A stretch of DNA of 33,111 nucleotides from Candidatus Troglogloeales bacterium (GTDB taxonomy: Bacteria; Nitrospirota; Nitrospiria; SBBL01): positions 1 through 33,111 of the forward strand of contig SBBL01000095.1 in assembly GCA_005239745.1 (NCBI GenBank), read 5' to 3'. Under the pieces are notes generated by a model. That model worked only from the letters and a program-made list of their open reading frames with translations, made no database searches and had not been told where the DNA came from. The stretch's first letter is position 1. Every line of letters starts with the position of its first letter. The position numbers were made by a program, and so were the translations under genes. Positions 17,996-20,195 of the stretch are shown here, one piece after another.

Positions 17996-19324
17996 ATGTT
18001 TGAAGTCCTTACTAAAAAGCTAGAGTCCGTATTTAAGACACTGACCGGGAGAGGAGTTTTGTCGGAGGCGCATCTGACGGAGGCCCTCAAGGGCATCCGC
18101 ATTGCTTTGCTGGAAGCGGACGTCCATTTTTCAGTGGTGAAATCGTTTATTGAAGCTGTGAGGGCAAAGGCCATCGGCAAAGAGGTGTCGGAAAGCCTCT
18201 CTCCCGGACAGCAGGTGATTAAAATTGTCCAGGCGGAGTTGTCCGTTATGATGGGGGCTGAAAGCAAGGGGATCACCCTTGCTCAAATTCCCCCAACCGT
18301 CGTATTACTGGTTGGATTACAAGGCTCCGGAAAGACAACGACGGCGGGGAAATTGGCGCGACTTTACAAGATAAAAGGTAAACGCGTCATGTTGGTTGCT
18401 GCGGACCTCAAACGACCCGCAGCCGTCGCCCAACTACAAACCCTCGGCCGTGCCATTGATGTCCCCGTGATGACAAATGATACGGTGGGCGTGGATGCCG
18501 GGGATGCCGTTGCCGTTGTCAAACAGGCGGCTGCTCAGGCCATCAGGGAAGATAGAGATCTCGTCATCGTTGACACGGCCGGAAGAGTTCATGTTGACGA
18601 CGCATTAATGGAGGAGCTATCTCGAATGAAGTCGGCCGTTTCTCCTCATGAAATTTTATTGGTGGCGGATGCGATGACCGGTCAGACGGCCGTCTCGGTT
18701 GCGACGGTGTTTCATCAACGCATGGGACTTACCGGCATTGTCTTGACGAAGACGGAGGGGGACGCGCGGGGAGGTGCCGTGCTGTCTATGCGGGCGGTGA
18801 CGGGCGCGCCCATCAAGTTTATCGGCACGGGCGAGAAACCGGACGCGATCGAGCCTTTTTATCCCGACCGGATGGCTTCCCGCATCCTAGGCATGGGGGA
18901 CATCCTCTCGCTGATTGAACTGGCTGAACAGAATTACTCCAAAGAACAACAAAAAAAGACGGTCCAAAGCGTTCGGTCCGGACAATTGACCCTTGAAGAT
19001 TTCAGCCTCCAGATCAAGCAGATGAAAAAAATGGGCGGGATAGAGAAGATCCTCGCGATGATCCCCGGCGCGCCTAAGATGCTCCCGGCAATGGACTCCG
19101 CGTCAGTTGAGAGGGAAATTAAACGCACGGAGGCCATTATTTCATCCATGACACCACATGAGCGCAGGAATCCGGCGGTGCTAAATGGCAAAAGGAGACA
19201 ACGTATTGCAAAAGGCAGTGGGACGTCGGTACAGGACATCAATCGGCTGATTAAACAGTTTGATGATGCAAAAAAAATGATGAAGCGCTTTTCCGGTTTT
19301 GGCCGGACTCCCCTCTTCAGTTAG
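17996..19324 (+). CDS. ffh: Signal recognition particle protein Ffh
   Basis: Ffh binds 4.5S RNA and signal sequences and, with FtsY, targets membrane proteins to the translocon. The 442-aa product has an N domain (1-85), a GTPase domain with G1 GLQGSGKT (107-114), DLKRPAA (137-143) and G3 DTAG (193-196), and a Met-rich M domain (about 320-435). The M domain contains the RNA-binding region around ERRNPAVLNGKRRQRIAKGSG. The guanine-specificity motif, usually TKxDGD, reads TKTEGD at 251-256, a Glu in place of the Asp. A CGGAGG lies 5 bases before the ATG. It is monocistronic here, as the next gene lies beyond a repeat element. Confidence 0.96.
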   Translation: MFEVLTKKLESVFKTLTGRGVLSEAHLTEALKGIRIALLEADVHFSVVKSFIEAVRAKAIGKEVSESLSPGQQVIKIVQAELSVMMGAESKGITLAQIPPTVVLLVGLQGSGKTTTAGKLARLYKIKGKRVMLVAADLKRPAAVAQLQTLGRAIDVPVMTNDTVGVDAGDAVAVVKQAAAQAIREDRDLVIVDTAGRVHVDDALMEELSRMKSAVSPHEILLVADAMTGQTAVSVATVFHQRMGLTGIVLTKTEGDARGGAVLSMRAVTGAPIKFIGTGEKPDAIEPFYPDRMASRILGMGDILSLIELAEQNYSKEQQKKTVQSVRSGQLTLEDFSLQIKQMKKMGGIEKILAMIPGAPKMLPAMDSASVEREIKRTEAIISSMTPHERRNPAVLNGKRRQRIAKGSGTSVQDINRLIKQFDDAKKMMKRFSGFGRTPLFS

Positions 19325-19337
19325 GGCGGTACAATAA

Positions 19338-19497
19338 GGGCTTGTCAAGGAATAACTGATACACAAAGGGCGAACGAGTCGCCCTGTTTGCAAGGCGCGA
19401 GGCGCGCGCATACCCTTCTGGCATGTAAGCGACGAGCAACGCAGCAAACGGGGGTGAATCGGCAGCCCGACTGCATAGGTTATTCCTTGACAAGCCC
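19338..19497. mobile_element. 160-bp MITE-like element with 19-bp perfect terminal inverted repeats
   Basis: The ends GGGCTTGTCAAGGAATAAC (19338-19356) and its exact inverted complement (19479-19497) enclose 122 bases of non-coding sequence. The element is flanked on both sides by TAA (19335-19337 and 19498-19500), consistent with a 3-bp TNA target duplication, as known for some IS5-family subgroups (IS427/IS1031). The interior can fold, since GTTTGC (19386-19391) pairs with GCAAAC (19444-19449) around GC-rich arms. It carries no transposase and must be mobilised in trans. It sits between ffh and coaE without disrupting either. Confidence 0.8.
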
Positions 19498-19505
19498 TAA
19501 GCTCA

Positions 19506-19544: not shown

Positions 19545-20195
19545 ATGCTTTATGTGGGACTGACGGGTGGAATCGCCAGCGGCAAAAGCACCGTAGCCTT
19601 TACGCTTTCGGAGGCCGGCGCCATTATCTTAGACGCGGATCAAATCGCCCATGCGGTTATCCAACGCGGTGGCGTCGCTTTTGAGGCCGTCGTTGAAGCG
19701 TTTGGGAAGGGTATTCTTGACGACAACGGCGAGATCAATAGGAAGCGACTGGGGGAAATCGTCTTCCCATCCCAAGACCGACAGCAGCAACTCAATCAAT
19801 TGGTTCATCCGCATGTCTTTGAAGCCGTACGCATTGAAAGGGAACGTCTTTCTAAAACGCACCCGGATGGCGTGGTAGTATGTGACATGCCGCTCCTGAT
19901 CGAGACGGGGGCTTACAAAGAAGTAGACCATGTACTGCTTGTCTATGTTGATTGCGAGACCCAATTGCGCCGTTTGATGCAACGAGATAATCTCTCCGAG
20001 CGGGCAGCACAAGCCAGAATTGCGGCCCAAATGCCTCTGAAAGACAAACTCCCGTTCGCGCATTCCGTGATTGATAATGGACGACTGTTGCCGGACGTAA
20101 TTAAAGACGTGAGAGAGATCTATCAAAAATTGTGTCAACTGGCGGTTAGGATGCCTCAAGGCCAATGGTTAAACACCGATTCAAAAAGCCCTTAG
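19545..20195 (+). CDS. coaE: Dephospho-CoA kinase
   Basis: CoaE phosphorylates the 3' hydroxyl of dephospho-CoA in the last step of coenzyme A synthesis. The 216-aa protein has P-loop GGIASGKST (8-16), the family motif LDADQIAH (about 30-37), 'LNQLVHPHVFEAV', 'VVCDMPLLIETG' and the lid 'RDNLSERAAQARIAAQMPLKDK'. Length and motif order are normal. The ATG begins the conserved LYVGLTGGIASGKST strand, so the start is secure although no close Shine-Dalgarno is seen. Confidence 0.96.
   Translation: MLYVGLTGGIASGKSTVAFTLSEAGAIILDADQIAHAVIQRGGVAFEAVVEAFGKGILDDNGEINRKRLGEIVFPSQDRQQQLNQLVHPHVFEAVRIERERLSKTHPDGVVVCDMPLLIETGAYKEVDHVLLVYVDCETQLRRLMQRDNLSERAAQARIAAQMPLKDKLPFAHSVIDNGRLLPDVIKDVREIYQKLCQLAVRMPQGQWLNTDSKSP

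Follow-up and report, generated by a model that had tools for sequence, protein, structure and literature searches.

A miniature element with probable ISAzo13-type ends and a structured core that recurs between other ends

The 160-bp element between ffh and coaE in the window (the whole analysed stretch of 33,111 nucleotides) is very probably a miniature inverted-repeat transposable element (MITE) of the ISAzo13 family, moved in trans into T(A/T)A sites, whose ends and structured core behave as separable modules. This separability follows from the occurrence of the same ends around another core in a Caldilineaceae genome and of the same core between other ends, both in the genome of the window and elsewhere. 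In itself, the element is an ordinary MITE for which a transposase family can now be named.

The element and its copies

The unit occupies positions 19338-19497 and has perfect inverted ends of 19 bp, each flanked by TAA, as the initial annotation had described it, correct to the base. The 19-mer GGGCTTGTCAAGGAATAAC was found at 19338-19356 on the plus strand and at 19479-19497 on the minus strand with zero mismatches, and allowing up to 3 mismatches brought no further match in the window (chance expectation 0.01). In a repeat search, the inverted arms reached a length of 27 nt with 89% complementarity. As a single strand, the element folded far more stably than shuffled sequences (0 of 200 shuffles were equally stable), with z-scores of -8.0 (DNA) and -8.5 (RNA) that owe part of their size to the terminal inverted repeats (TIRs) themselves. 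The element and its neighbours comprise the following features:

17996-19324, plus strand: neighbouring gene ffh (SRP54), ending 13 bp before the element
19335-19337, no strand: left target-site duplication TAA (sequence; flanks match in 11 of 13 copies)
19338-19356, plus strand: left TIR GGGCTTGTCAAGGAATAAC (ISAzo13-end formula; one change from the Caldilineaceae insertion sequence)
19357-19381, plus strand: left subterminal arm, pairing imperfectly with the right arm (RNAalifold, 13 interiors)
19382-19453, plus strand: whole structured core (model R2, 84.8 bits, with the window copy in the training set)
19382-19391, plus strand: 5' side of stem A (CCCTGTTTGC), covarying helix
19392-19398, plus strand: left bracket word AAGGCGC
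19409-19413, plus strand: 5' side of stem B (CATAC), one of five pairs being broken in the window copy
19421-19425, plus strand: 3' side of stem B (GCATG in the window copy)
19436-19445, plus strand: right bracket word GCAACGCAGC, its last GC being the first two bases of the 3' side of stem A
19444-19453, plus strand: 3' side of stem A (GCAAACGGGG), covarying helix
19454-19478, plus strand: right subterminal arm (RNAalifold, 13 interiors)
19479-19497, minus strand: right TIR (sequence match)
19498-19500, no strand: right target-site duplication TAA (sequence; flanks match in 11 of 13 copies)
19545-20195, plus strand: neighbouring gene coaE (dephospho-CoA kinase), starting 47 bp after the element

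The genome to which the window belongs (1.63 Mb in 145 contigs, completeness 94.4) contained 46 sites for the TIR 19-mer at up to 2 mismatches and none for the reversed-pattern control. A search with the whole element returned 54 matching pieces, self-matches of the ends among them. Of the 13 copies with both ends that were read, twelve measure 159-160 bp and one measures 86 bp; matching 3-bp flanks, TAA or TTA, were present in 11 of the 13, and TAA was paired with TTA in the other two. A fourteenth copy (L009), with a 1-bp insertion in one end and TAA/TTA flanks, stands outside this count. The mixed flanks of L008, L011 and L009 perhaps reflect recombination between copies or altered duplications. 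A further 11 pieces stop at contig ends or at most 2 bases from them; the assembly was thus interrupted by the element itself, which makes the copy count a minimum. Pairwise identity among the twelve full copies was 91-98% (mean 95%). The 86-bp copy (L027, 518-603) is a deletion derivative that lost the centre of the core and retains intact ends with TAA/TAA flanks. A 31-bp remnant flanked by TTA was seen at L049.

The copies lie between genes, in most cases 0-55 bp from one. The 5' neighbour runs in the same direction as the element in 11 cases and in the opposite direction in 5, the 3' neighbour in 9 and 10, respectively, so that no clear orientation bias relative to neighbouring genes was detected. 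Reading frames of at least 80 aa that span the element were absent from 24 of the 25 copies for which some flanking sequence was available; a 120-aa frame across copy L004 was put down to chance. Five loci considered as longer elements with the same ends (L033, L049, L052, L028 and L026) turned out to be solitary ends or remnants beside ordinary genes, with no insertion sequence (IS). At L052, L028 and L033, solitary TIRs or short remnants directly precede genes and could serve as a 5' leader; from their translations, we take these genes to be murB-like, purE-like and a DUF507-like frame.

The element was initially annotated as a recently mobile MITE, of which other copies should exist in the genome. 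Its identity as a MITE is borne out by its short length, the lack of coding content, the inverted ends, the 3-bp duplications and the multiple copies, of which 13 are two-ended. Recent mobility is only moderately supported: the copies diverge by about 5% on average, and the ISAzo13 genes of the genome are broken.

The ends and the transposase family

Within the genome collection, the exact 19-mer was present in a single further contig, from a Caldilineaceae MAG, in a search that may omit records very near the window's own genome. The Caldilineaceae genome (G041) contained 81 end sites at up to 3 mismatches, against 0 in the control. One of its loci (L124, 408-1824) is a complete IS of 1,417 bp with GGGCTTGTCAAGAAATAAC at both ends and TAA/TAA flanks, and the end of this IS differs from the 19-bp end in the window by one change. 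Its transposase belongs to the ISAzo13 family (PF07592, 3.9e-114; NF033519, 2.8e-120) and is encoded in two overlapping frames, the break between them being either a programmed frameshift or a mutation. The same genome also has MITEs of about 120 bp with similar ends and a quite different core, which is palindromic as well.

ISAzo13 matches were present in 23 of 345 genomes of the window's phylum. Comparison of 19 of 32 ISAzo13 loci (the 13 left out being mostly fragments) revealed at least one end of the form G-N12-AATAAN preceded by TWA within 450 bp at 15 loci and no such end at 4. Both ends were found at 5 of the 19 loci, and there the flanking triplets agree in 5 of 5. The end of the window element fits the same formula, with AATAAC at positions 14-19 as in the ISAzo13 ends. 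PMC10045372 reports 3-bp duplications for the ISAzo13 family. According to this model, an ISAzo13 transposase supplied in trans would recognize the 19-bp ends and the element would be inserted at T(A/T)A with duplication of 3 bp.

The initial annotation had attributed the mobilization to an IS5-type transposase. IS5 groups making 3-bp TNA duplications exist, and an IS5-family (ISL2/IS1031-like) enzyme with TNA targets would agree with the TAA or TTA flanks of the element. However, the complete IS that shares the ends is an ISAzo13 member, the inner motif AATAAC belongs to ISAzo13 ends, and the sole match in the genome to PF01609 (IS4/IS5-type), the profile covered by this search, is a transposase of the IS1634 family. 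Because of the matching IS and the end formula shared with ISAzo13 loci, an IS5 origin is not supported and appears highly improbable. Of the earlier proposal we retain the supply of a transposase in trans, which is probable, and drop its assignment to IS5.

A matching IS, as sought in the initial annotation, thus exists in Caldilineaceae, but no intact cognate IS was found in the window genome, where two broken and divergent ISAzo13 relics were detected, one a gene with an internal stop and the other a fragment. No facing TIR pair 1-2 kb apart was found among the 46 genome sites. The relic with the internal stop (L070) was considered as the source and rejected, as it has no site within 6 mismatches of the element's TIR. 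This relic (G000:C34) lies beside DNA of a different kind, and its end is unlike that of the MITE. Elsewhere in the class (195 genomes), the end was near background level: allowing up to 2 mismatches, 11 sites were counted, distributed over 10 genomes, and the reversed control gave 6. The source transposase may sit in the missing part of the genome or may have been lost, and the copies may now be stranded, the transposase that spread them being absent from the assembly.

The structured core and its occurrence between other ends

The interior of the element is a structured core and not an internal remnant of the IS. RNAalifold analysis of 13 interiors gave 29 pairs, 11 of them with changes on both sides. 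The core consists of the covarying stem A and the two bracket words AAGGCGC and GCAACGC(A/C)GC, with the small hairpin B inside. In 16 aligned cores, stem A (10 pairs) and stem B (5 pairs) were paired in 92.3% of cells, and 11 of the 15 core pairs showed changes on both sides, a number reached in 0 of 500 shuffles; the structure was read from one of the 16 aligned sequences, which somewhat favours this result. When the structure was slid by 1-3 columns, at most 6 such pairs and 45% pairing were obtained. Arm-to-arm copying in a long palindrome would imitate covariation. The bases outside the bracket, which are free in the search pattern, paired at 6.42 of 8 positions versus 4.45 (sd 0.15) when swapped among loci, in a control of 57 loci that kept three poorly paired ones and included related copies. 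A further contrast, of 8.3 versus 3.1, was not blind, the 17 "chance" places having been labelled after they were seen to lack ends. The window copy had no Rfam match at E up to 10, sX9 included, and plasmid records contained no match to the window element or to the core of G073.

A search of 40 relatives, the nearest of which belong to other families than the window genome, revealed related elements in three genomes of the same order (G001, G002 and G005). In these elements the centre is alike and the ends are different (e.g., GGAGTCGCGTCAAAATAAC, GGGGTTGAGTATAAATAAC, GGGTCTGTAAAAAAATAAC). When 295 genomes of the phylum were searched with a model built from the 13 interiors, 6 contained matches. 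The core elements of G073 and G103 end in TWA followed by GTGCCTCA..., those of G047 and G273 in CTA followed by GTGTC.... In the phylum to which the Caldilineaceae genome belongs, the core model R2 matched one of 301 genomes, G379, at two sites with 57.8 bits, and it did not match the 120-bp Caldilineaceae elements that share the ends of the window element.

Model R2 also found locus L072 in the window genome, with ends GGGCACCTCTAAAAACC (31.3 bits, E 0.00037, 45 sources); this locus had entered the search set for another reason. It belongs to a second MITE family of the window genome (G000) and G001 (L072, L155-L179, L222-L224), which has ends GGGCACCTCTAAAAACC and is mostly 142 bp long. Its duplications, over 21 end pairings that include alternative pairings of one copy (L164), were 4 bp in 12, 3 bp in three, 2 bp in one and none in five. 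The interiors of the two MITE families of the window genome resemble each other in stem A and the bracket words only, so the likeness may be due to convergence. Either an old core acquired new ends, or the bracket arose on more than one occasion.

The pattern AAGGCGC-N28-58-GCAACGCMGC gave 188 matches in 51 of 345 genomes versus 23 in 21 genomes when reversed, both totals having been summed by hand from a table. Two genomes account for 67 of the 188 matches, and chance occurrence in coding sequence appears to be the source of many single ones. The highest number, 42, was observed in G023, a 3.6-Mb genome of the same class. Grouped by eye, the end types around the matches further include, among several, GACGGCTTCGTAAAAAG, TAGTGTCCTGTCAGGCAA, CCGTAAGGGTTCAGCATGC, CGAGCCTGTTCAGGAAGG and GTTGTGCCCCGAACGG. 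In the GACGGC class, whose 21 rows include alternative pairings of the same copies, the direct repeat was 6 bp in four pairings, 5 bp in one and absent in 16. The core bracket occurs in MITEs with duplication lengths of 3, 4 and apparently 6 bp. In the literature searched, mostly outside subscription journals, we found neither ISAzo13 MITEs nor the sharing of one MITE core by elements with different ends described; PMC2817692, which came up through a matching sequence word, concerns REP sequences and was set aside as unrelated.

The core of the second family (L072) scored 37.4 bits (E 0.0014) against the Rfam family sX9 (RF02228) across its 76 positions, and cores on a Comamonas and a Yersinia plasmid matched it at 40.9 and 40.0 bits, all three values lying under the gathering score of 44. 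Among 245 genomes, sX9 matches were found in the window genome (10), in G001 (13) and in G056 and G064 (one each); none attained the gathering score, the cores of the second family scoring 31.5-41.6 bits. At these 25 places, ends of the GGGCACC type were present at 17 and other ends at one; none were found at seven, six of which are short of flank. The window core and eight related-core loci outside the second family had no sX9 match; a repeat of the Rfam search on L001, L063, L139, L136 and L135 likewise gave no sX9. Table 3 of PMC9029176 lists sX9 as one of the 20 most prevalent sRNAs of bacterial genomes and gives no note on its expression. Many of the sX9 sRNAs counted in genomes may be MITE cores, as judged from these 25 sub-threshold places in the phylum.

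Possible roles of the core and comparison with known systems

The core could be historical ballast without function, left by an old MITE lineage in which the ends drifted or were replaced and the stems were kept by arm copying. This is plausible without being probable: the elements lie between genes in either orientation, and the 86-bp derivative without the core centre keeps intact ends and TAA/TAA flanks, but the unpaired words AAGGCGC and GCAACGC(A/C)GC persist where stem and ends are unrelated, for which arm copying offers no explanation, and the excess of bracket matches over the reversed pattern in the 345 genomes likewise argues against mere descent. Stems and ends vary whereas the unpaired words are preserved, and for this reason a selected folded RNA or single strand appears likelier than pure history. 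The core would then have been retained for the use of its fold, be it in a transcript or in a single strand of DNA. Ends appear to have been exchanged around cores in evolution.

How a selected fold might act is a matter of two further readings. Possibly the core is transcribed, as a small RNA or as a processing or attenuation hairpin that makes intergenic insertions tolerable or useful to the host. The resemblance of the cores of the second family and of the plasmids to sX9 and the closeness of most copies to genes are consistent with such a transcript, whereas the missing sX9 match in the window core and the eight related-core loci, the scores of all sX9 matches below the gathering score and the lack of orientation bias speak against it. 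A role at the DNA level, in which the core would form a cruciform or a single-stranded fold during transposition or replication and might, for instance, join the two ends, would suit a structure that forms on either strand, whichever transposase family is involved; such a role is unlikely, given that another core, also palindromic, lies between the same ends in the Caldilineaceae MITEs and that the 86-bp derivative is flanked by TAA/TAA without the core centre. We tentatively suggest that the core is an independently selected module that several unrelated transposon families carry between their ends; sX9 would be one form of this module, and thus a MITE core and no stand-alone sRNA gene. As part of the same tentative proposal, the module would range through the window's phylum and sporadically beyond it (one Chloroflexota-side genome and proteobacterial plasmids).

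If the core is selected, this would explain the inner likeness of MITEs with unrelated ends, give a reason for the success of some MITEs and recast sX9, a prevalent sRNA family according to Table 3 of PMC9029176, as part of mobile elements. The element shares with bacterial MITEs in general its short length, perfect TIRs, target-site duplication, many intergenic copies and the lack of a gene; in contrast to them, its core is conserved across MITEs of other ends and duplication lengths. The Correia elements of Neisseria are likewise short MITE-like repeats with structured interiors. With the ISAzo13 insertion sequences (PF07592, NF033519) it has in common the ends G-N12-AATAAN, the T(A/T)A target and the 3-bp duplication, and it differs from them in lacking a transposase gene and in having an interior that is unrelated to the complete IS beyond the ends. 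To sX9, a Xanthomonas sRNA, the core of the second family is related by matches below the threshold, and the window core is tied via the bracket words only.
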